Below, one piece after another: positions 37,684 to 49,207 of a stretch of 64,000 bases of DNA (the first letter of the stretch is position 1; each line of letters starts with the position of its first letter). The notes under the pieces are model-generated. The model saw only the letters and a list, made by a program, of their open reading frames with translations. It ran no database searches and was not told the origin of the DNA. The stretch covers positions 3,100,001 through 3,164,000 of the forward strand of contig NZ_CP141062.1 of NCBI RefSeq assembly GCF_034661295.1, in the 5' to 3' direction. The stretch comes from Faecalibacter sp. LW9. Lineage in GTDB: Bacteria > Bacteroidota > Bacteroidia > Flavobacteriales > Weeksellaceae. The position numbers and the translations under genes are program-made.

Positions 37684-40600
37684 TTACTCTTTGTTTTTTA
37701 AGGTGATGCTACCTGTATATTTGATTGCTTGTACCACACCTTCACCTTGAATGTCGATTGTGAACCAGTAATCAGTTGTTGGTAGAAGTTTACCTGCGAC
37801 TTTACCATCCCAAAGAATATCTTGGCTACCGCTTTGTTCGAACAAGATTTTACCAAAACGATCGAATATTTTTAAGTCTACCGATTGATTTAATTGGATT
37901 GGTCTAATTCTCCAAACGTCATTGTAACCATCATTATTTGGTGAGAAGAACGTAGGAATATCAATTACCTGAACTTCTTGAATTTCGAAAATACAATTTG
38001 CGATCTTCACATAAATTGTATAGCTCATTCCTCTTTGTGGAACAACTAATACATTCGATGATTGGAAGTTAATTCCATCTAAAGAATATTGAACATCGAT
38101 GTAATCTCTATTTGGAACAATGTTTACTGTTATTGTATTTTGTCCTACAATGATTTCTCTAACTGCTGGAGGATCAAAAGTTGCTAACTCAAATGCATAT
38201 TCAGAAGTACATCCAAATTCATTTTCAACGACAACATTATATACTCCTAATTGAGATAATCTAAATTTATTGTTTCCTAAGTTCACCACTCCTGCTCCAA
38301 TGACTTGGATATTTGTTGTGTAGTTTGATAAGTCTAATACATACTCATCACCTTCACAAATGTAATATTTATCTTCTATTTCAATCGCTGGTAAAGGATT
38401 AGCGATGTAATCGAAGCTAGAATATCCAGGGCATAATCCAGCAGCTTCAAACTTCACATAGATAGTTCCACGCGCTGTGATAGTCGTCCACACTGTAGGA
38501 TTTAAAATCTCATTTGTTCCATTTTGTAAATCTGTCAATGTTGGATAGTATGATAAAATATATCCTGCAGGAACGTTAAATTGAGAACGAACTGATGTTA
38601 AATCAAATTCTGCAACTCCGTTTTGGTCCATACAAACTTCTAATGGTGTAGTTGCTGGAGTCACAACAATTGAATCTCCTTGTACCAATTCGATTGATTT
38701 ATGTACGAAACATCCTGATGCAGTTGTAGCTTTAACCCAAATTTGAGCTGGTAAGCGCGTTAAGTATTCGCTTCCCGTAATCTCGTTTCTATCGGCTAAT
38801 AAATCAGCCTCTGTACGGAAATAAGTTAATGTTATTCCATTTGAATTCACTAAAACTACTTGAGATAAAACATCTAAGTTTAATTCATATTCACCATCTA
38901 CATTAGAATCACAAACTCCAAATGAATTAACTTCTGTAAATTCTGGTAAAGCATTGACAACTAAAGTAAACGTAAAGTTCGATGTACATCCTTTGTCTGA
39001 TGTTACTGCTATCGCATATGTTCCTGCAGTATTTAATTCAAATTTATTGTTTCCTAAAGCTACAACATTTGTACCTGTCAATTCAATTGTATAAGCAGTG
39101 TAAGCTGATAAATCTAAAACGTATGTTTCTGTATCACATATTTCTACTGTTGTTTCAAATGTAATTTCTGGTAATGGATTTACGACATATTGGAATGATG
39201 AAATCGTAGAACATAAGTCAGCTTGATCAAAACGAACATAAATTGTACCTTCTGTTGTAGAAGTTGTCCATGCATTAGGTGTTTGAATAGCGTTAGTATT
39301 GTTCTTCGCATCTTCTTCTGATGTATAGTATGTAATTGTTGCTGACGTATTAAATAAAGGTGCCATTGAAGTTAAATCAAATGTAACCTCTGATGCGTTA
39401 GGAACTTCACAAGTTTCTAATACTTGAGCAATAGGAGTAAATGTAATGGCATTTGCTGGGACAACATCTAATGAAGTCACTGCAAAACATACAGACTCGT
39501 CATTCGCTGAAGCTCTAAACCAAACTTTTGCAGGTAAAGCATCAACTTCAAACGTCGTTCCTGTCAATTCGTTTGTATTGGCAATGGCATCAGCTTCTGT
39601 TGCAAATGCTTTCACTTGATAAGTAAAAGCAGCTGTATTCACTTGAGCAGCTGCTAAGGCTTTTACTTGCTCTAAGTTGATTTCATAAATACCGTCCAAG
39701 TTCTCATCACAAATCTCAACATTTGCAATTGGAGCAAATACTGGCTGAGGCGCTATCGTTAAGTTTAATTCGAATATTGATTGACATCCTGAAGCTGTTG
39801 AAATCGTAATCGTATACGAACCTGCTTCTGTGAATTGGTAAACTTTTGTCGAAACTTCAGTATAATTTCCTGTTATTGCAAAAGAATAATTTTCGTAACC
39901 TGATAAATCTAAAGTATAGACTTCTCCTTCACAAATGATACCTTCTGAAACAACATCAATTGACGGTGCTTCAATTGTTATAAATTGAATTGGTACCAAT
40001 GCATCACATTTACCTTCTTGTTGTAATAAGATAAACACAGTTCCTTCTGTTAAAGCTGTTTGCCAAGCATTAGGGGTTGTTATCTCATTTGTATTTGCTA
40101 TCGCATCTTCTCTCGAAGGGAAATATTTATATGTTACACCATCTTCTAAAGCTAAAGTTGGTAAAACCATTGTTAAATCAAATGTAGTTAATCCTTCTGG
40201 ACCAACACATTCCTCTAATGCATTTCTAGGAGCAGTAAAAGTAATTGTCTCACCTACAGCTAAAGGTACTTCTCCAATTGAGAAACATCTGGCTTCAGAA
40301 TTTGTTCGAACAAATAATTTTTCACCTGGAGCGATTATTGCCACATCTCCTTGAATTGGATTTGTTTCATTTTGTGCATCTTCTAAAGTTTTGTAGAATG
40401 TATACACATAATCTCCGGTATTATCTCTTAAGAAATCTCGAATTGGAACTAAATTAACTTCATAATTTCCGTCAAAATCACTATCACACATTGTAAAATC
40501 AGACCAGAATTCAATGTATGGTGCTTCCGTCATATTTAAATTAATGACACCTTCACTGATACAGCTTCCATTTCCAATCTTAACTGTAATTTGAGCTGAT

Positions 40601-41910
40601 TCAGTTACTGTAAATTCAGCTGGATTAGTAATTTCAACATCTCCATAATAATATGTATATGTGTAATTATTTTCTTCTGGTACAAATTGATTTTGGAATT
40701 GAGTTAAATTAACCACTTCTTCGAAACATACATCCACATTAATAGTAGATTCTGCTAAAACAACACGAACAATTTCTAAGGTTACAGGAATTATTTTAAC
40801 ACATTTTGTTTCTTCCCCTAAATCATATTCTAAACGTACATAATAAGTTCCTGCAACAGCACCATGGTTGGTCCACGCACTTTCTGCAATTAGACCTGCA
40901 GTACCATTTGCTTCTGCTTGCGCACGTGTTCTAAATACTTTACGACTAATTAAAGCATCAGCAGCATATTCTGGAGGGAAAATCTCATTTAAATTAAAAG
41001 TACCTAAAACTGCTTGCGTTTGTGGATTTGTTCCAGCGTAACATCCATAGATGACATCCGATGCCGTATTTAACGGTGGTAAAGCCATTAAATTAAATTT
41101 AACGACATCCACATTCCCATTATTCTGAACAAAACCAACAAAAATTTCTTTACCATCTTCTGTATATGGCAATGAAATGATTGAATTGATACGTTGAGTT
41201 TCATCGTTTGCTTCAGCCGCTTCTTCTGTTTCATAAAAAAAGTAAGGGCTATTATCATTCGGAGGACGTACCTCATCGATATATGAATCTAAATTGAACG
41301 TTGCTAAACCAGTTTGTTCATCGATACATTCATAAAATGTCTTACCAAAGTAACAGTCCAATTGTGCATTTCCACCAAATGTGATGGTATAAGGATTGTT
41401 TGAACTCCAGTCATCCACCCCTATTAAGACAATATCTCCTGGAACAACATCATACCAACGCTCTAATCCATCACCTGCAACACCATTACATAAGTTGGTT
41501 GTATTTAACGACAAACCAATGGTAGTTCCTTGCCCTGCAGTATTACGGTTTCCGCGATCCCCTGGAGGTAAAGCATTAATATCTTGTAATGTGATATTAT
41601 GAATATCATTTAATGGAGGATTCTTCCAAGAAATGAAATCATAATCTCCTCCACCTTGAGGAGTTAACTGGAAAGTAAACGTAGATCCTGATCGAATCTG
41701 TACTAAATAGAATTTAAAACGGGTAGAATATCCGTCCGAACAAAATGATCTCACATCTACCCCTTGCATAGATTCTGGTGGATTTGCAGTAATGTTAACA
41801 TTAGAACAAACCAATCCAACATCTACCTGGGCGACTTGTGAGAACACAGATGTAGTGCTTATGAGCATCAATAGCATAAGCACTACTCTTTCGCAGAGTA
41901 ATTTTATCAT
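37684..41910 (-). CDS. Very large T9SS type B cargo protein with repeated modules
   Basis: This 1408-aa secreted protein has a signal peptide (VVLMLLMLISTTSVFSQ). The C-terminus IPTFFSPNNDGYNDVWRIRPI, LKIFDRFGKILFEQ and ILWDGKVAGKLLPTTDYWFTIDI is the gliding-motility-associated (CHU_C, T9SS type B) sorting domain, so it is exported through the type IX system to the cell surface. The middle is built of beta-rich modules. Three of them share a line of the form TNxIxxPNAWxTxxxxGTIYVxF and a following GxCTSxFxFxLxxxALPEF-type Ig-like strand set, repeating about every 260 aa (DNA spacing near 780-790 bp around 40.06, 39.27 and 38.49 kb). Likely an adhesin or surface-matrix protein. Single-gene unit. 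Confidence 0.9.
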   Translation of the reverse strand: MIKLLCERVVLMLLMLISTTSVFSQVAQVDVGLVCSNVNITANPPESMQGVDVRSFCSDGYSTRFKFYLVQIRSGSTFTFQLTPQGGGDYDFISWKNPPLNDIHNITLQDINALPPGDRGNRNTAGQGTTIGLSLNTTNLCNGVAGDGLERWYDVVPGDIVLIGVDDWSSNNPYTITFGGNAQLDCYFGKTFYECIDEQTGLATFNLDSYIDEVRPPNDNSPYFFYETEEAAEANDETQRINSIISLPYTEDGKEIFVGFVQNNGNVDVVKFNLMALPPLNTASDVIYGCYAGTNPQTQAVLGTFNLNEIFPPEYAADALISRKVFRTRAQAEANGTAGLIAESAWTNHGAVAGTYYVRLEYDLGEETKCVKIIPVTLEIVRVVLAESTINVDVCFEEVVNLTQFQNQFVPEENNYTYTYYYGDVEITNPAEFTVTESAQITVKIGNGSCISEGVINLNMTEAPYIEFWSDFTMCDSDFDGNYEVNLVPIRDFLRDNTGDYVYTFYKTLEDAQNETNPIQGDVAIIAPGEKLFVRTNSEARCFSIGEVPLAVGETITFTAPRNALEECVGPEGLTTFDLTMVLPTLALEDGVTYKYFPSREDAIANTNEITTPNAWQTALTEGTVFILLQQEGKCDALVPIQFITIEAPSIDVVSEGIICEGEVYTLDLSGYENYSFAITGNYTEVSTKVYQFTEAGSYTITISTASGCQSIFELNLTIAPQPVFAPIANVEICDENLDGIYEINLEQVKALAAAQVNTAAFTYQVKAFATEADAIANTNELTGTTFEVDALPAKVWFRASANDESVCFAVTSLDVVPANAITFTPIAQVLETCEVPNASEVTFDLTSMAPLFNTSATITYYTSEEDAKNNTNAIQTPNAWTTSTTEGTIYVRFDQADLCSTISSFQYVVNPLPEITFETTVEICDTETYVLDLSAYTAYTIELTGTNVVALGNNKFELNTAGTYAIAVTSDKGCTSNFTFTLVVNALPEFTEVNSFGVCDSNVDGEYELNLDVLSQVVLVNSNGITLTYFRTEADLLADRNEITGSEYLTRLPAQIWVKATTASGCFVHKSIELVQGDSIVVTPATTPLEVCMDQNGVAEFDLTSVRSQFNVPAGYILSYYPTLTDLQNGTNEILNPTVWTTITARGTIYVKFEAAGLCPGYSSFDYIANPLPAIEIEDKYYICEGDEYVLDLSNYTTNIQVIGAGVVNLGNNKFRLSQLGVYNVVVENEFGCTSEYAFELATFDPPAVREIIVGQNTITVNIVPNRDYIDVQYSLDGINFQSSNVLVVPQRGMSYTIYVKIANCIFEIQEVQVIDIPTFFSPNNDGYNDVWRIRPIQLNQSVDLKIFDRFGKILFEQSGSQDILWDGKVAGKLLPTTDYWFTIDIQGEGVVQAIKYTGSITLKNKE

Positions 41911-41989: not shown

Positions 41990-44900
41990 TTAAAATCCAA
42001 AATTTAGTCCAAAAACAATTCGCCCTGGATCAGAGCCTTTAAAATAAGAAATTGATGCAGTTAACATTTGGGCTCCGTTCAACCAAATCCCTCCTCCAGC
42101 TGAAGAATGCCATTTGTCTGAACCTTCGTTATTTAGCCAAACGCGACCATAATCAAATCCACCAAAAATACCTAAACGCATCGGGATTCCAGCCTTAAAC
42201 TTCACCATATCAAGACGTAAGTCCGTAGTCTGTAAAAATGATTTATCACCTGAAAAACGTCCAAAACGATATCCTCTTAAATCTTGATCACCACCCAATG
42301 TTATGGCTTGGTAAAATTCATAACCATTTCCAAAAATAGCCTTTCCTTTTACCATAGAAGCAATGGTCAATTTTCCGTTTGCAGATAATTTATGTGTAAA
42401 ACCTAAGTTCGCTTCTGTAGAAACAAAATTATTTTCTAATCGTTCGTTATTCGTAACCCATTTTGCATGAGCTAAAAACGTCATTCCTAAAGTTGGTAAT
42501 GACTCATTATCATAATTTCTATACAGATAATTTGCTCCAACTTCAGTAAAATTCTGACCCCTAAATACCTGAGGATTAACATCAGGAGAATCAAAGACAA
42601 CACGATCATGATTTTCTTCAACTTTAATAAACTTATAATTAGCGAAGAAATCCAATCGACCTGTATTTCTAAAGATTTTATATACCGAAGGTCCTACTTC
42701 ATAACTTTGTTGACGTACTCGGTTATAATCCATCCCTAAATCTTTTTGATTATTGATGGATTCATTACCTAATCCAAAGAAATTCGTACTGAACGCTGGA
42801 GTGGTATAACGACCATTAATATCCAAATGCCATTTACCAATTGCTTTGATAAAAGTTCCTTTATACGTTGCTTCTACCCCTTGTGTGGCGAAAAAGTAAT
42901 TTAATTTTAAAGTATGTCGTTGCGAAAATGGTTTACGATCAAAACCATTAATTGTATAAGTTGGTGATAAACCTAATTTAATTCCATCATCTGGGTTATA
43001 TCCAACATTCGGTAACATAGTAAATACATCATATATTGGTGCAGTATAATCATACGTATTGATTTCGTAATCATTTACAAATTTTTTCTGTGTTAAAAAT
43101 GAGGAAGCTTCAGCTGAATTCCCATTCTTATAATCATATACACGCACATTTTTCGAACGCTTTACTTCATATACATCATCATCAATACCACCAATTAAGC
43201 GTAATAAAATTGGATTACTACCTTTTCCATCAACTACAAATGTATCAGTATCATTTAAACCATATAAACGAATTTCTTTGGTTTCTTTACGGTCGAAAGT
43301 ACGATCCAATAAAACCTCATCTGTATTTTTTGATATAATTTTAATGTGAGTTTTTCCTTTCGGTAAACGTGTAATATGGAAATCTTCTGGATCATTTGTA
43401 CCTCTAATTATCACCAATTTCGATAAAACCTTATGATATTCTTTGGCAAAATTAACCAACTTTGTTTTTCGTTCAAGTAAACGATCTATGACCACTTGAT
43501 CATAATTATTTTTAACTTCTTTTGGGAGTTTTTCGAATGATTTTGTTATAATTTCCTCGGTTAAATTTTGTTGAATAAATTCAGCTTGTGTCGTCCATTG
43601 CTCTAAATCCGAAGCTTCTAATAAAGCCAAATCAAGGTTATAAGGCTCTCGATTGAACCATTTTAAACTTTTTATATCATCTTTAAAATCTTGCATGTGA
43701 CGCAATAATGGAATCCCCATGATGACATCAAATAATAAACCATCATAACGTGGAAATACTTGGTCACGATCTCTTGGTATAGGGCGATAAATGGTTGTAT
43801 TTCCTTCCTTAAATTCAGCCCAACGCCATTGATCAGCATGACGATCCCAATCTCCTACCAACATATCAAAAAGACGCACACGCATATACATTTCCTTATC
43901 CACAATTGTAGATGGTGATTTCTGTATATTGGCTAACATTTCATCTGTACTTACAATATCCAATGGATTTCCGAATCGTTCAACCGCATCATGTTCTACT
44001 GTTGGACGTTCTTCTATAAAGTATAATTCATCTCCAAATCGTTCATTATACTCTTTTAATTGTGTCTGTTTTGGAACATAATATAATTTGGGATCCGCAT
44101 GGAATATTCCTAATGCTTTTTGCATATCTGGAATAACCATCGGATAATACGGATGAGTTGTGGTATAAAAATCCAATAAGAATTTTTCTGTAAAAGTATT
44201 TTCAAACTCTTCAGCTACATATTCATTTTTGAATGCAACAGATTGAATAAAACGTGTTGCACTTTTCTTTACAGCACGCATATTATACTCTCTATTTTTA
44301 TCATCTACTAAACGAAGAGAATTCGTTTGATGCCCACCTCCAGCTCGAATTGGCGTTAAACCACCATATAATTTCGATAAATCAACCGATGGCACACTTA
44401 CATCAGTTCCATACGTTTTACGGTAATGACGGCCAAAGAAAAATTTATAGATATCATTTTTTCGAGTAGCTTCTTTATCGTATACTGTTGACTTAACCAA
44501 TCCAACGTCTGGATTTTGATAGCCTGGATCTTTATATTCTTTTTTTTCTTCCGTCAGTTGTTGAGAAAATAATAATTCGACATCCTCTTCTCTAAAACCA
44601 TAATATTTAATTCGAGAGGCACCATTGTCCATAATTTCTAAAACTGCATATCCTTTTCGTCCATACGAAAAATCATTTGGTCCCGATTTTTTTGCAGCTT
44701 GTTGTTTAGATGCCGATCCACTAATAATTTGTTTTAAATTATTTTGCTCTAAATATTGAAGATTATGATCATGTCCTGATACCACAATGACATTTGATCG
44801 ATCTTGTATTAATGTTGAAATACGCGAAGCAAAATCACGATAAAAAGAATTCTGTAAATCTTGAGGACTTAATCCTGAAGTTGCACGGATTAAGTTTAAT

Positions 44901-45706
44901 AAACTCCCCACAACCGGTAAAGGAAAGTAGTTATCAAACGGAAACAATTGTTGCTTTACACTATACTTTCCGCCATGAGAACCATTGGTAATTAATGGAT
45001 GATGTGTAACAAGAACAGTTGTACGATTTTGAAATTTATTCAATTGGGATTCGATCTCTTCGAAAAAAGCTTCTCGAGTTTTGACATCACATTTCTCATT
45101 CAAATTCGGATGTTTATCCCAATCCTCTAGATACCATTGTGAATCCAACGTTATGACACCAATACTATCATTAACTTTTATCTTATCAATTCCACAACCA
45201 TCTTTTGGTAGAAAGATCTTTTTTTGATCAATATGCTTTTTAATGTACTTTTCTTGCGCCTTTAAGCCCTCCAAACCATTATACCAATCATGATTTCCAG
45301 GAACAAACAATGTTTTTCCTTTAAAATTTTTCGCTAAGTTAATCTGAACATCCAATCGATTTTTACCTTCTCGATTTTCATCGGAATCTTTCTCAGGATT
45401 TAAACCTTTAGGATAGACATTATCCCCCAAAAAGACTAAATAGGATGAAGAATCTGCTTTTTCTAATTGAGCTTGTAAGAGTTTTAAATTGGACTGATTT
45501 TTTTCCAACGCTAATTCACCACCATCACCCAACAAGTAAAAGGATTGTATCACTTTTCCTTTAACTTGTACTTCTGTTTGATTTTTTACATTTTTACCAA
45601 ATTGTGCATGATGTGTCGCACAAGATGTTAAGTAAAAAGATGATCCAACCAATAGATAGAGTGGATAATTTTTCTTAAAGTTGCAAAAAGTTGGCAGAAT
45701 TTTCAT
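41990..45706 (-). CDS. Metallophosphoesterase - kinase-like - outer-membrane barrel fusion lipoprotein
   Basis: This 1238-aa protein has a lipobox LTSC (Cys29). Residues 55-370 form a calcineurin-like phosphoesterase: LGDGG (60-63), GDNVYPKG (94-101), GNHDW (137-141), HHPL (235-238) and GHDHN (311-315). Residues about 450-760 hold a segment with MRAVKKSATRF, LFDMLVGDWDRHADQWRWAEF (612-632) and YRPIPRDRDQVF (640-651), a pattern close to the CotH-type atypical kinases (GNWDRH...N, then PWDxD). From about residue 900 a repeated beta-strand pattern ending SDPGRIVFGLNFGF is a BamA/TamA-like surface-antigen barrel. The whole likely sits in the outer membrane with enzyme domains in the periplasm. 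The start lies only 25 bp from the divergent HD-PycTM gene. Confidence 0.8.
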   Translation of the reverse strand: MKILPTFCNFKKNYPLYLLVGSSFYLTSCATHHAQFGKNVKNQTEVQVKGKVIQSFYLLGDGGELALEKNQSNLKLLQAQLEKADSSSYLVFLGDNVYPKGLNPEKDSDENREGKNRLDVQINLAKNFKGKTLFVPGNHDWYNGLEGLKAQEKYIKKHIDQKKIFLPKDGCGIDKIKVNDSIGVITLDSQWYLEDWDKHPNLNEKCDVKTREAFFEEIESQLNKFQNRTTVLVTHHPLITNGSHGGKYSVKQQLFPFDNYFPLPVVGSLLNLIRATSGLSPQDLQNSFYRDFASRISTLIQDRSNVIVVSGHDHNLQYLEQNNLKQIISGSASKQQAAKKSGPNDFSYGRKGYAVLEIMDNGASRIKYYGFREEDVELLFSQQLTEEKKEYKDPGYQNPDVGLVKSTVYDKEATRKNDIYKFFFGRHYRKTYGTDVSVPSVDLSKLYGGLTPIRAGGGHQTNSLRLVDDKNREYNMRAVKKSATRFIQSVAFKNEYVAEEFENTFTEKFLLDFYTTTHPYYPMVIPDMQKALGIFHADPKLYYVPKQTQLKEYNERFGDELYFIEERPTVEHDAVERFGNPLDIVSTDEMLANIQKSPSTIVDKEMYMRVRLFDMLVGDWDRHADQWRWAEFKEGNTTIYRPIPRDRDQVFPRYDGLLFDVIMGIPLLRHMQDFKDDIKSLKWFNREPYNLDLALLEASDLEQWTTQAEFIQQNLTEEIITKSFEKLPKEVKNNYDQVVIDRLLERKTKLVNFAKEYHKVLSKLVIIRGTNDPEDFHITRLPKGKTHIKIISKNTDEVLLDRTFDRKETKEIRLYGLNDTDTFVVDGKGSNPILLRLIGGIDDDVYEVKRSKNVRVYDYKNGNSAEASSFLTQKKFVNDYEINTYDYTAPIYDVFTMLPNVGYNPDDGIKLGLSPTYTINGFDRKPFSQRHTLKLNYFFATQGVEATYKGTFIKAIGKWHLDINGRYTTPAFSTNFFGLGNESINNQKDLGMDYNRVRQQSYEVGPSVYKIFRNTGRLDFFANYKFIKVEENHDRVVFDSPDVNPQVFRGQNFTEVGANYLYRNYDNESLPTLGMTFLAHAKWVTNNERLENNFVSTEANLGFTHKLSANGKLTIASMVKGKAIFGNGYEFYQAITLGGDQDLRGYRFGRFSGDKSFLQTTDLRLDMVKFKAGIPMRLGIFGGFDYGRVWLNNEGSDKWHSSAGGGIWLNGAQMLTASISYFKGSDPGRIVFGLNFGF

Positions 45707-45731: not shown

Positions 45732-46922
45732 ATGCTTGATCCTTTAAATACGATCGAAAACTACATTTTTTCGTTGTTCAAAGATAACCTTTCTTTCGAC
45801 TACACTTACCATAATTTTATGCACACAGTAATGGTAGTTGAAGCGGTTAAAAAACTGAGCAGACTTTCCGATGTATCACCTGAAGATGAATTTAATCTTT
45901 TGGTTGCCGCGTGGTTTCATGATACTGGTTATACCAAATCTTTGGAACAACATGAAAAACATAGTGCTACGATTGCAGCAGACTATTTGCGAGAACATCA
46001 ATTTTCAGACCTAATTATTCAAGAAGTTGAAAAATTAATTCTTTCTACTGCAATTCATACAACTCCACAATCCTTACCAGAATTTATTATACGAGATGCA
46101 GATGGATTCCATCTGGGTCATGAAGAATACCCAAAATTTGCGGAATTACTTCGTAATGAAATTGCAAAAACCCATCATAAAGAGTTTACAGATTACGAAT
46201 GGCATTTAGAAAATCGTAGTTTCTTTTTGAATCACCATCGATATTACAGTGATGCTGCTAAACAATTATGGCAAAATCAAAAAGATATGAATTTGATTTG
46301 GATTCAAAATAAAATCACTGAAATTGAAAAGATTGGTGAATCATTGAATAAATATGAATTAAAGAAAAAGAAAAATGATAAGATCCAACAAATGGATCGC
46401 GGAGTGGATACGTTATTTCGTGTAACTCTAAGTAACCACACCCGTTTAAGTGATATTGCGGATTCTAAAGCAAATATTTTACTTTCAGTTAATGCCATTA
46501 TTATATCCATTGCGCTATCGACTTTAATTCCAAAATTAGGTTCGCCTAAAAATGAATATTTACTGATACCTTCCATTGTATTATTGGTCTCTAGCGTCGT
46601 TTCTATTGTATTTGCCATTCTTTCCACTAAACCAAAAGTGACCTATACCAAGTTCACAGAAGAAGACATTAAAATGAGAAAAGTAAATTTATTATTCTTT
46701 GGAAACTTTTATCAAATGGCAATTGATTCATATGAAGAAGCAATGGACGAATTAATCAAAGATCGAGATTATGTCTATAATTCATTAACCCGAGATTTAT
46801 ATTTTTTAGGCAAAGTATTAGAGCGTAAGTATCGTTTATTAAACATTACTTACACCCTATTTATGATTGGAATTATTTTATCTGTTTCGGCTTTTGCGAT
46901 TGCATTATTCATTAATAATTAA
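45732..46922 (+). CDS. HD-domain phosphohydrolase fused to a Pycsar-effector-like membrane domain
   Basis: The protein has 396 aa. Residues 20-190 are an HD phosphohydrolase: H27/H31 in YHNFMH, WFHD with H63-D64, EKHS around H77 and the late RDADGFH (D122). A basic, charged helical linker (200-222) leads to residues 224-395, which match the PycTM/DUF5706 domain: DTLFRVTLSNHTRLSDIADSKANILLSVNAIIISI, two helices to about 298, GNFY (324-327), EAMDELIKDRDYVYNSLTRDLYFLGKVLERKYRLL, and a last helix (372-393). PycTM proteins are the membrane effectors of Pycsar anti-phage systems, activated by cCMP or cUMP, and usually stand next to a pyrimidine cyclase. No cyclase is near. The HD fusion suggests either nucleotide turnover coupled to the membrane domain or a housekeeping role. 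Confidence 0.82.
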   Translation: MLDPLNTIENYIFSLFKDNLSFDYTYHNFMHTVMVVEAVKKLSRLSDVSPEDEFNLLVAAWFHDTGYTKSLEQHEKHSATIAADYLREHQFSDLIIQEVEKLILSTAIHTTPQSLPEFIIRDADGFHLGHEEYPKFAELLRNEIAKTHHKEFTDYEWHLENRSFFLNHHRYYSDAAKQLWQNQKDMNLIWIQNKITEIEKIGESLNKYELKKKKNDKIQQMDRGVDTLFRVTLSNHTRLSDIADSKANILLSVNAIIISIALSTLIPKLGSPKNEYLLIPSIVLLVSSVVSIVFAILSTKPKVTYTKFTEEDIKMRKVNLLFFGNFYQMAIDSYEEAMDELIKDRDYVYNSLTRDLYFLGKVLERKYRLLNITYTLFMIGIILSVSAFAIALFINN

Positions 46923-49207
46923 TGATATACGATAGGAACTCGTATTGCTCGTAACCCTCCTAGGCTTTGGAGTTCCTCTACTTCTAAATATTCAATAGTA
47001 TGATGTAAAAAACCTTGTGCAATCAATTGATTTATACAATAGGTATATTCATCACGTAAAATATCTTCTGTGTAAATCACGCAGATATGTCCAGGAATAT
47101 TAATACGTTCATTACTTCCTTTGACATAAGCTTTGTTGATTCGTTTTTTAATGATTTCATATTTGGCATTATTATACCCATCCACATCAAATCGTTTTTC
47201 ATCCAATTTAAACGTGATATCTAACGTTAAATTAGAACTTAAGATCAGACTTGCAATTTCCAAAGGCATTGGCAATTTTGTTTTAATGGCATGATAGCTT
47301 TGCTCTAATAAAATCATTGTTTTAATTTGCCAAAAGCGCAACTGACGAACAATTGAATAATCAAATGTATATTTAGGCGAAATACTGCGACCAACATACA
47401 AATTAAAATCAATACCATCGGTTTTAAATCGTTCGTAATAATGTGGTATAATGGTTTGTGCCTCTACCTGATATTGATCAAGCCCTGTAGATATTGTTTT
47501 ATTTAATATTTGTATGGATTCATCAAACTTCTTACGTTCTACATAAAATAACCCTGTATAAGCATCTAATTTTCCTAAATAATCTGCAATGATGGATTCT
47601 TCGTTTTCGAGAGTATAATTGGGAATTTCAGGATGTATATTCAAAGAAATAAATTCAAAGATTTCACGTTCAAAATAGATTTTTTCTACTTGATCGATTC
47701 GGCTCAGAAACTTATGTAATTGTTCAATATCTTCTAAAAATTTCGTTTTACCTGAACGTCGGTACATTTCTTCACATACTTTGATCAAGAAATTCATTTG
47801 GTTCTGATAATCCATTTTCATGCATTGATTGCGTAGCATTGATGAACTTCGGACATCCAATTCGCCATAAAAAGGATAAACATCATTAAATGAAATTTCA
47901 GATTTCTTTTCCGCTGAATCTGGATTTAAAATAATTTCAATTGCTTTATTTTTAAACTTCCATTCGACACTAGGATGTAAAGAAGTGTATTCGGTCTGAA
48001 TAAAGGAATTCACTTGATGCATAAATTCGATCGAATAACGATGAATAGAGTCTTCAATTAAAGGCAATAAATCTTTTAATAACGATGCATTGATTCGGTT
48101 GAAAACTCCTGGAATTGAAGAGGCTATTTCCAAAATCCCTAAATTTTCATCACCTTTTCTTAAAGGATAAAGGATTATACTTTTTATGCCTTGCACTAAT
48201 AAATTATCAATCATTATATCACTTGAAAAACGTTCTTTATATTTTTCAATATTAGAGATGACATAATAATTGGATGAAACAATTTGATCAATAAAATTGG
48301 TACAGAATAAATCGTCACGTTTCATGGTTTTACCATGATTAAGGATTAAACTTTCTTTAATGGATTTATTTTGTAGACCTTCAATGGTGTTATTTTCGTC
48401 ATTTAAACTTGAGAATCCAATAATTAAATCACTAATTCGAAAGATGGATTTCAAAGATTTTACAGCTTCGTCATTGATATTATCCAAAATTTCGTTAATG
48501 GAAATCAAATTGGTTTTCAGATTCGATAACGCAATCTCAGTGGTGTTATCAAATAATGAAGCTATCGCTATTCCTTTTGCAACCCAAGAATTAGGAGGCA
48601 TGTATTCGTACCAAAGTGATGTATTTTCATAATTATTTAATAAATCATCAATTTGATCTTTTGTTAATTCATATGATGGATTAATAGGATAAACATCAAA
48701 ATAATCGATATCATAATGAACAGTATAAAAACTACTGTAACCTAAACCTTGATCAACTTCTATGGTATTGGTTTGGTTGGATTCTAAATTTATACCATAA
48801 TAACGACTTAAAATAAAGCAACACGCAAATTTATAATAGTCAAAAGCATTTAAATCTTGATATTTTGTTTTAATCACAACATGGTGACCATCGATAATCT
48901 GGTGCAATGATTCTGTCGGATAAATGTATTTCTCAATCATCGGAAAACATAACGCTTTCAGATTATTTTTCGTCATTGCACTCGGAATAATTTGTTCCAA
49001 CAGGGGTGAAACATCTTTTAATAACTCCTCAAATTTATCAATTGAATCAACCCCATTAATAAGCTGCTCGACATTAACATGTAAAGAAGTTAAAAAAGTA
49101 CGGATATCGACCATCTTATCATTTGAATTTTCTAATTCTTTGATAATACTGGCAAAACTATAAATCGGTTGAAACGGTAATTGAAATTGATTCGTTGAGT
49201 TATCCAT
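46919..49207 (-). CDS. GAF-domain protein, otherwise uncharacterised
   Basis: This is a 762-aa soluble protein without signal peptide or membrane helices. A GAF domain covers roughly residues 270-395 (LILNHGKTMKRDDLFCTNFIDQIV, YYVISNIEKYKER, IKSIILYPLRKGDENLGILEIASSIPG). The N-terminal 250 residues are a mixed region with a long helix at the start; the C-terminal 360 residues are largely helical with no kinase, cyclase or phosphodiesterase motif that I can see. Similar-length GAF proteins occur in Flavobacteriia with unknown function. Its stop overlaps that of the convergent HD-PycTM gene by 4 bp. It lies after the yaaA terminator, so it has its own promoter. Confidence 0.78.
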   Translation of the reverse strand: MDNSTNQFQLPFQPIYSFASIIKELENSNDKMVDIRTFLTSLHVNVEQLINGVDSIDKFEELLKDVSPLLEQIIPSAMTKNNLKALCFPMIEKYIYPTESLHQIIDGHHVVIKTKYQDLNAFDYYKFACCFILSRYYGINLESNQTNTIEVDQGLGYSSFYTVHYDIDYFDVYPINPSYELTKDQIDDLLNNYENTSLWYEYMPPNSWVAKGIAIASLFDNTTEIALSNLKTNLISINEILDNINDEAVKSLKSIFRISDLIIGFSSLNDENNTIEGLQNKSIKESLILNHGKTMKRDDLFCTNFIDQIVSSNYYVISNIEKYKERFSSDIMIDNLLVQGIKSIILYPLRKGDENLGILEIASSIPGVFNRINASLLKDLLPLIEDSIHRYSIEFMHQVNSFIQTEYTSLHPSVEWKFKNKAIEIILNPDSAEKKSEISFNDVYPFYGELDVRSSSMLRNQCMKMDYQNQMNFLIKVCEEMYRRSGKTKFLEDIEQLHKFLSRIDQVEKIYFEREIFEFISLNIHPEIPNYTLENEESIIADYLGKLDAYTGLFYVERKKFDESIQILNKTISTGLDQYQVEAQTIIPHYYERFKTDGIDFNLYVGRSISPKYTFDYSIVRQLRFWQIKTMILLEQSYHAIKTKLPMPLEIASLILSSNLTLDITFKLDEKRFDVDGYNNAKYEIIKKRINKAYVKGSNERINIPGHICVIYTEDILRDEYTYCINQLIAQGFLHHTIEYLEVEELQSLGGLRAIRVPIVYH

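Follow-up and report, generated by a model that had tools for sequence, protein, structure and literature searches.

A Faecalibacter protein combining a purple-acid-phosphatase-type domain, a CotH-like kinase-fold domain and an Omp85-type barrel: a candidate phosphotransfer enzyme of the outer membrane

The window analyzed here, a 64,000-nucleotide stretch of Faecalibacter sp. LW9 (contig NZ_CP141062.1, positions 3,100,001 to 3,164,000), contains on its minus strand a gene (41990..45706) whose 1238-residue product is composed of a phosphatase, a kinase-like domain, a beta connector and an Omp85-type barrel, as judged from the open reading frame (ORF), its translation and a structural model. 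This protein is probably an outer-membrane-anchored phosphotransfer enzyme with a kinase core and an optional phosphatase. Alignments and predicted structures establish the three parts, the kinase fold, a set of conserved catalytic-type residues, a core made of the kinase-like part and the barrel, and a phosphatase that is dispensable.

The gene occupies a single open frame on the minus strand; read on the plus strand, this interval contains many stop codons. An earlier sequence-only reading of the window had proposed one three-part chain of 1238 residues without stating its strand, and the frame is indeed open and real. Full-length homologues occur in many genera at 27-75% identity, which argues that the 1238-residue arrangement is not due to chance. 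The nearest named relatives belong to Faecalibacter, Empedobacter and Chishuiella (62-75% identity in the best segments), and three named species of Flavobacterium also have the gene. Some match (E ≤ 0.001) is present in 150 of the 296 genomes of the phylum sample, a count that includes weak barrel-only and phosphatase-only matches. No second copy was found at E ≤ 0.001 in the 3.17-Mb genome to which the window belongs. A phage origin of the gene was considered and dropped, as phages gave no match. One family copy (G226:C1:402038-405748) carries an in-frame TAA. Annotation libraries match only the two ends of the chain: Pfam Metallophos at residues 75-256 (E 5.9e-8) and NCBIfam Omp85_fam at residues 1029-1236 (E 3.6e-16, under its cut-off). 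Conservation is given below for a nearer set of 114 homologues and a more distant set of 52.

Fold and candidate catalytic residues of the middle domain

The middle of the chain (residues 437-762; 43421..44398, minus strand) is predicted to be a CotH-like kinase-fold domain, on the evidence of an AlphaFold2 model, Foldseek and VIA-align structure comparisons and a match to a CotH profile. Two models were built without templates, one of residues 40-1238 from 62 sequences (predicted local distance difference test (pLDDT) 88.4, predicted template modeling score (pTM) 0.85) and one of residues 400-880 from 85 sequences (pLDDT 89.6, pTM 0.90). The best VIA-align match of residues 437-759 (38-360 of the model) is the spore-coat protein kinase CotH (5jd9; Z 15.1, root mean square deviation (rmsd) 4.0, 248 residues aligned), and further matches include PI4K-II beta (Z 14.7), CtkA (Z 13.3), HipA (Z 11.3) and a Golgi casein kinase (Z 10.5) that we take to be of the Fam20 type. 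Among the 50 matches listed, 49 are by title kinases or kinase-fold toxins, the exception being LepB. Kinases also lead the Foldseek results, with CtkA first (E 2.2e-5) and CotH at E 6.1e-4. The kinase-type fold that had been proposed for residues 440-760 is thus supported, with CotH as the closest match; the HipA, CtkA, Fam20-type and PI4K type II kinases have the fold in common with the window domain, at scores that are lower or tied.

Profile comparisons (hhalign) against a set of 30 CotH proteins from 25 genomes, which do not depend on the models, point in the same direction. The full CotH proteins give P 8.7e-5, or P 2.8e-4 with a wider family alignment, and the alignment puts GDWDRH in register with the catalytic loop GNWDNY of CotH and PRDRD with its DxD motif PYDYD. 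When CotH is trimmed by Pfam coordinates the values are P 1.6e-4 to 7.8e-4, and the hinge LYFIEE is aligned with LYLNVE. An earlier trimming by motif pattern, which left 4 of the 30 sequences, was weaker (P 0.013, probability 3%) and is superseded by the trimming on Pfam coordinates. As for controls, the best of 39 unrelated families gives P 0.016 (41 were run, two of which are the window family itself and were excluded), and the phosphatase and barrel profiles of the same family give P 0.034-0.044 and P 0.19-0.2, respectively. HipA, at P 0.037-0.062, shows no clear profile match to the window family.

In relation to CotH (5jd9, 5jda; PF08757), then, the window domain shows the best fold match and a catalytic loop, DxD and hinge in register; it differs in having no Pfam CotH match, in carrying GDWDRHxDQW in place of GNWD, and in being fused to an outer-membrane barrel. 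PF08757 gave no match to the window protein at E ≤ 10. By these models and alignments the middle domain is CotH-like in fold and motif register, yet it is no member of the Pfam CotH family. A PF08757 search of the window's own genome did not find the window gene and returned one other site (G000:C1:951728-952708), which has an in-frame TAG. A profile search of PDB sequences with the middle domain gave no identification, and a PADLOC match (PDC-M03A, residues 592-627, 1.8e-4) was set aside.

The modeled order of elements is a strand, a GGG loop (456-458), a strand, a further strand ending in K481 and a helix (505-514) with a conserved D512, and later a helix (604-617), the motif GDWDRHADQ (618-626), a beta hairpin and the motif PRDRDQVF (644-651). 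We assign these elements to the glycine loop, beta3 lysine, helix C, catalytic loop and DFG positions of kinases. The candidate glycine-rich loop, GGGHQ (456-460; 44327..44341), is conserved and lies, by DSSP, between strands 451-455 and 461-467, and the candidate beta3 lysine, Lys481 (44264..44266), is conserved at the end of the modeled strand 473-481. D621 of GDWDRHADQ (43829..43855) is the candidate catalytic aspartate and D648 of PRDRDQVF (43754..43777), at the DFG position, the candidate metal aspartate; both motifs are conserved, and they are aligned with the GNWD loop and with PYDYD of CotH, respectively. All four elements are encoded on the minus strand.

These candidate residues are nearly invariant. 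K481 is kept in all 114 nearer homologues, as is D648, with D621 in 112 and H623 and D646 in 110 each; the corresponding numbers among the 52 distant homologues are 50 for K481, 49 for D621, 47 for H623 and 48 each for D646 and D648. The sequence-only reading had located VKKS (479-482), GDWDRH (618-623) and PRDRDQVF correctly, and the four positions that it had singled out (D621, H623, D646 and D648) do not vary freely, being kept in at least 110 of 114 and at least 47 of 52 homologues. The trio K481/D621/D648 is complete in 112 of the 114 nearer and 47 of the 52 distant sequences.

Phosphatase, barrel and the architecture of the family

The N-terminal part (residues 50-388; 44543..45559, minus strand) is a purple-acid-phosphatase-type metallophosphoesterase, as indicated by the Metallophos match cited above and by the VIA-align match to 2bq8 (Z 27.5, rmsd 2.8, 268 residues aligned to a target of 304, 11-349 of the model). 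The metallophosphoesterase previously read from the motifs GDGG (60-63), GDN (94-96), GNHD (137-140), HH (235-236) and GHDH (311-314), all of which lie at these positions, can therefore be specified as a purple acid phosphatase fold. The ligand motifs of ACP5-type enzymes are GDxG, GDxxY, GNHx, H and GHxH, and GDGG, GDNVY, GNHD, THH and GHDH of the window protein fit this set; animal purple acid phosphatases have GNHE where the window protein has GNHD. Fold and metal-ligand motif set are common to the tartrate-resistant purple acid phosphatase (2bq8), GAP50 (3tgh) and the window phosphatase, which differs from those enzymes in its fusion to a kinase-like domain and a barrel.

All six core metal ligands are intact in 93 of the 114 nearer homologues. 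Of the 21 with fewer than six, three are set aside (L031, with five of six, and the truncated L109 and one L103 copy), which leaves 18 in which the phosphatase is clearly degenerate (at most four of six ligands); all 18 keep K481, D621 and D648. In the distant set the phosphatase domain is in the same frame in 22 of 52 and not in the same frame in 30, where missing means not in the same open frame, since in L190, L191 and L199 it is encoded by an adjacent gene. The near-invariance of the trio while the phosphatase degenerates or is missing suggests that the kinase-like part and the barrel form the core. By alignment, the kinase-like domain is the most strictly conserved part of the chain.

Loci were chosen for family hits and not at random. 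They comprise 79 nearer loci, nearly all from Flavobacteriia by title, and 52 others (L190-L241), of which 12 (L190-L201) were picked for odd architecture; some of the 52 belong to the same order or class as the window, and a single genome can contribute two loci (for example, L198 and L209). The 63 genes classified at these 52 loci include 24 kinase-barrel and 20 three-part genes, 7 with a phosphatase only, 7 with a barrel only and 5 with a kinase-like part only; none is a phosphatase-barrel gene without the kinase-like part. Kinase-barrel forms that lack the phosphatase are about 860 residues long, and two kinase-like genes without a barrel encode 423 (L193) and 498 (L192) residues. In a quickly built tree of 91 kinase-like domains, with Shimodaira-Hasegawa-like approximate likelihood ratio (SH-aLRT) support only, phosphatase absence corresponds to six changes (at least four forced by starred branches) and phosphatase degeneration to four (at least three forced), and each count may be one too high owing to a truncated L103 copy scored as degenerate and a long branch, L114, scored as having none.

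Two family genes are present at 6 of the 79 nearer loci; a seventh locus, L109, seems to hold one gene split between two frames. At five of the six (L040, L041, L043, L048 and L080) the paralogues form a pair in which the phosphatase is intact in one and degenerate in the other and the kinase-type residues are intact in both, and in the L103 pair one copy is degenerate and the other cut. The intact/degenerate pairs hint, at the level of sequence, at hetero-pairs and possibly a hetero-oligomer; the Dokdonia type is one example of a genome with two copies. The parts also occur as separate genes. At L190 and L191, which represent two genomes from a single genus, the genes for the kinase-like part (545/518 residues), the phosphatase (403 residues) and the barrel (395/394 residues) follow one another on the same strand, with spacings of 13 and 6 bp past the stop codon followed by 4-base overlaps. 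At L199, which belongs to another family, the phosphatase frame overlaps a neighboring kinase-like frame that runs off the end of the contig. Five plasmid-borne relatives are annotated as 'hypothetical protein' or not at all, and this large protein now gains a reading; one of them, on Parabacteroides distasonis plasmid NZ_OY725747.1 (131106-133481), is a kinase-barrel form (query 404-1238) annotated as a hypothetical protein.

The chain begins with a putative signal peptide and a lipobox, LTS-Cys29 (residues 1-29; 45620..45706, minus strand), recognized from the sequence. The acidic type of surface-export signal in Bacteroidetes consists of acidic residues after the lipobox cysteine, and the window protein has none at positions +2 to +6. 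A lipobox pattern matches 80 of the 116 rows, two of which are the window protein itself, with each ORF begun at the first start codon that follows a stop; the remaining rows are unread rather than negative. Between the kinase-like domain and the barrel lies an all-beta connector (residues 763-889; 43040..43420, minus strand; DSSP and conservation), with GLNDTDTF and GGIDDDVY turns, in the place of POTRA domains. Its residues D821, G839, G840, D844 and Y846 are at least 95% conserved, and the conserved GG-x-DDD-x-Y turns resemble those of calcium-binding RTX repeats. No Pfam or NCBIfam POTRA model matches the window protein, and residues 763-889 are all-beta in both models.

The BamA/TamA-type barrel that had been read at the C terminus (residues 892-1236; 41999..43033, minus strand) is well supported, with 16 long modeled strands (855-1197 of the model), a VIA-align match to BamA/Sam50 at Z 25 and the match to NCBIfam Omp85_fam. 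It contains the motif LRGY (1143-1146; 42269..42280, minus strand), the (V/L)RG(F/Y) motif of Omp85 loop 6, and R1144, R1147 and R1150 are at least 95% conserved. Omp85 proteins in their classical form have at least one POTRA domain (PMC11116518). By model and sequence, the window protein has an Omp85-type barrel and is not a classical Omp85 protein.

A phosphotransfer reading and its alternatives

According to PMC11116518, the patatin domain of the Omp85 protein PlpD was shown to be periplasmic, and POTRA domains of Omp85 proteins are described as never having been seen outside the periplasm. Together with a lipobox without acidic residues after the cysteine, this suggests that both the phosphatase and the kinase-like part are periplasmic; by analogy, the soluble domains are more likely to face the periplasm than the cell surface, where the sequence-only reading had tentatively put their role. 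The Omp85-type barrel and a lipid on Cys29 would then hold the CotH-like kinase domain at the outer membrane, most likely on its periplasmic side. The kinase domain would phosphorylate some component of the envelope, be it a protein, a glycan or a lipid head group, and the optional N-terminal purple-acid-phosphatase domain would strip phosphate, or recycle the donor, at the same spot. We infer catalytic activity, a periplasmic location and a pairing of opposing activities, and the neighbor genes in relatives, namely HD(/PycTM), PPK1, SixA-like phosphatase and SdiA-regulated/phytase-like lipoprotein genes, suggest that the protein is tied to the cellular economy of polyphosphate and nucleotide phosphate. 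Should the kinase-like domain prove active, this family, which is present across the phylum sampled here, would have a kinase bound to the outer membrane, in a compartment that is said to lack ATP. Whether phosphate is transferred on the inner side of the outer membrane, and from which donor, would then become testable questions.

Several observations weigh against such a kinase. Searched with the window protein, no Pfam or NCBIfam kinase model matches, and a Pfam scan of the middle domain in 85 members gives scattered, chance-like matches, the only kinase entry among the best 25 of 41 families being FAM198 (one member, E 0.059), presumably a Fam20-type Golgi kinase. The Foldseek superpositions are loose (rmsd 8.7-14 Å, with query template modeling scores of 0.23-0.32 for CtkA and CotH), as may be expected for a remote relative within a 481-residue model, and the hhalign probabilities for CotH are just 25-60%, which makes the profile link to CotH a modest one that depends on the fold match. 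D621 is replaced by Asn in 2 of the 114 nearer homologues, at least one residue of the trio is missing in 5 of the 52 distant ones, and E507, the candidate helix-C glutamate, is kept in just 5 of those 52. Five residues after the candidate catalytic aspartate, where the HipA sequences compared have Asn, stands Gln626 (109/114; 49/52), so that metal binding may differ. Moreover, the periplasm is described as an environment without ATP (PMC11116518), and a normal ATP-dependent kinase there has no obvious donor.

The lack of ATP could be met by an ATP-independent kinase, a version of the phosphotransfer reading that we consider unlikely, in which the donor would be, for example, polyphosphate or a lipid or sugar intermediate that carries pyrophosphate, and the acid phosphatase would serve as the reverse or recycling arm. 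Polyphosphate kinase PPK1 is found near the family gene at 15 of the 52 other loci, spanning nine family codes, and a SixA-like histidine phosphatase at 9 of the 52; by arithmetic, PPK1 would be expected by chance to lie about 9 kb or less from any one gene of a 4-Mb genome at roughly 0.5% of loci. If the ATP-independent version is true, lineages with PPK1, the SixA-like phosphatase and an HD hydrolase beside the gene would display the link directly. Against the phosphotransfer reading as a whole, neither PPK1 nor the SixA-like phosphatase occurs at any of the 79 nearer loci, and the window genome's own PPK1 is 1.2 Mb from the gene; the polyphosphate link therefore belongs to other lineages, and we infer it here.

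A kinase fold may also persist without kinase chemistry, the middle part regulating the barrel as a scaffold, a ligand sensor or an AMP-transferring enzyme, with conserved residues that bind a nucleotide or metal. Gln in the place of the HipA Asn, the poorly conserved helix-C Glu and a location with no known ATP supply (PMC11116518) are all consistent with this; however, K481, D621, D648, R622 and H623 are near-invariant while the adjoining phosphatase decays more than once, and a scaffold would not be expected to keep catalytic-type residues more strictly than a neighboring enzyme. We judge it rather unlikely. The barrel itself, with its 16 Omp85-type strands and LRGY motif, would suit an assembly or translocation factor of the BamA/TamA sort that inserts or exports envelope proteins or lipids, with the soluble domains replacing POTRA, and the Omp85 relatives characterized earlier are mostly such factors (PMC11116518). 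We nevertheless find this quite improbable: POTRA models do not match, the pre-barrel segment is all-beta, and 146 of the 296 genomes in the phylum sample lack a match, unlike what an essential factor would show; PlpD provides a case of an Omp85 enzyme with a role in lipid homeostasis (PMC11116518). Plain phosphate scavenging, with the purple acid phosphatase releasing phosphate close to the membrane and the remainder of the chain serving as an anchor, accounts for the phosphatase fold and for the 93 of 114 homologues with six intact metal ligands. It is very improbable, as the phosphatase is precisely the part that is lost or degenerate (degenerate in 18 of 114; absent from 30 of 52 distant frames) and none of the 63 classified genes combines phosphatase and barrel without the kinase-like part.

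With regard to known proteins, Heinz and Lithgow 2014 (PMC4104836) described an Omp85 'Metallo' subfamily with a PF00149 domain before the barrel, which they called a metalloprotease; the words 'kinase' and 'phosphatase' do not appear in the main text of that paper. The window protein has the same pairing of a PF00149 domain with an Omp85 barrel, and its family would be the 'Metallo' subfamily or a group overlapping it. The domain labeled a metalloprotease there has as its window counterpart a purple-acid-phosphatase-type phosphoesterase, and the 2014 label of such Omp85 proteins is corrected accordingly. PlpD (PMC11116518) likewise joins an enzyme domain to an Omp85 barrel, is periplasmic, dimerizes and alters membrane lipids; it has a patatin domain and POTRA, whereas the window protein has a phosphatase, a kinase-like domain and a beta connector. 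No report of a kinase part in phosphatase-barrel proteins was found in the portion of the open-access literature covered. New here are the class of enzyme, the domain with a kinase fold and its stronger conservation, and the gene neighborhood; the phosphatase-barrel pairing has been known since 2014. Two identifications with Riemerella proteins were dropped: the metallophosphoesterase of Niu 2021, which appears in a citation and in a row of a table of type IX secretion system effectors (PMC10202324), and OMP76, which is described as TonB-receptor-like.

Gene neighborhood and a second, HipA-like family

The divergent neighbor of the gene (45732..46922, plus strand) encodes a 396-residue protein with HD phosphohydrolase (Pfam HD, E 3e-8) and PycTM (E 4.9e-34) matches. 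HD(/PycTM) relatives occur near the family gene at 63 of the 79 nearer and 25 of the 52 other loci, and 56 copies are divergent, including 50 that lie no more than 500 bp away; a further 24 share the strand of the family gene and 10 are convergent. The L194 relative has an HD match and no PycTM match. PycTM is the membrane domain of Pycsar effectors, and the synteny of HD-PycTM with this family suggests a role outside defense. The next gene (46919..49207, minus strand) encodes a 762-residue protein with no Pfam family at E ≤ 0.1 and is also a frequent neighbor (relatives at 46 of 79 nearer and 8 of 52 other loci). In addition, an SdiA-regulated/phytase-like lipoprotein is found at 10 of 79 nearer and 21 of 52 other loci, with 20 copies on the same strand (median gap 14 bp) and 11 convergent. 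At L200, L208 and L210 a CotH gene and a second gene, with a Porin_O_P match in the L200 copy, lie near a kinase-barrel gene. On the other side, 79 bp downstream of the window gene and on the same minus strand, is the gene for a type IX secretion (type B sorting) protein of 1408 residues (37684-41910); it was dropped as part of the unit, as relatives occur at none of the 79 loci.

A second set of kinase-looking lipoproteins also lies beside Omp85 barrels. At L196, lipoproteins of 565-568 residues adjoin Omp85 barrel and purple-acid-phosphatase-like genes and contain kinase-type elements, namely an LIKFDG strand, SSWLNDTDRRDANTM and QDFGNTLG. The two that were scanned have no Pfam match. Their profile matches HipA at P 8.4e-4, across just 61 columns, and matches neither CotH (P 0.45) nor the window family (P 0.13), and the catalytic-loop pattern is seen in 3 of 8 copies. 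These HipA-like lipoproteins are rare, with 8 copies in 5 of 247 genomes, and include plus-strand copies at L196 (951-2654 and 9939-11633), L253 (7583-9550) and L254 (6826-8496) and minus-strand copies at L251 (7722-9404) and L252 (7408-9204). An Omp85 barrel gene adjoins 6 of the 8, and a purple-acid-phosphatase-like gene is also present beside the lipoprotein at L196 and L251. Should the HipA-like reading be right, kinase-like domains would have become paired with Omp85 barrels twice.

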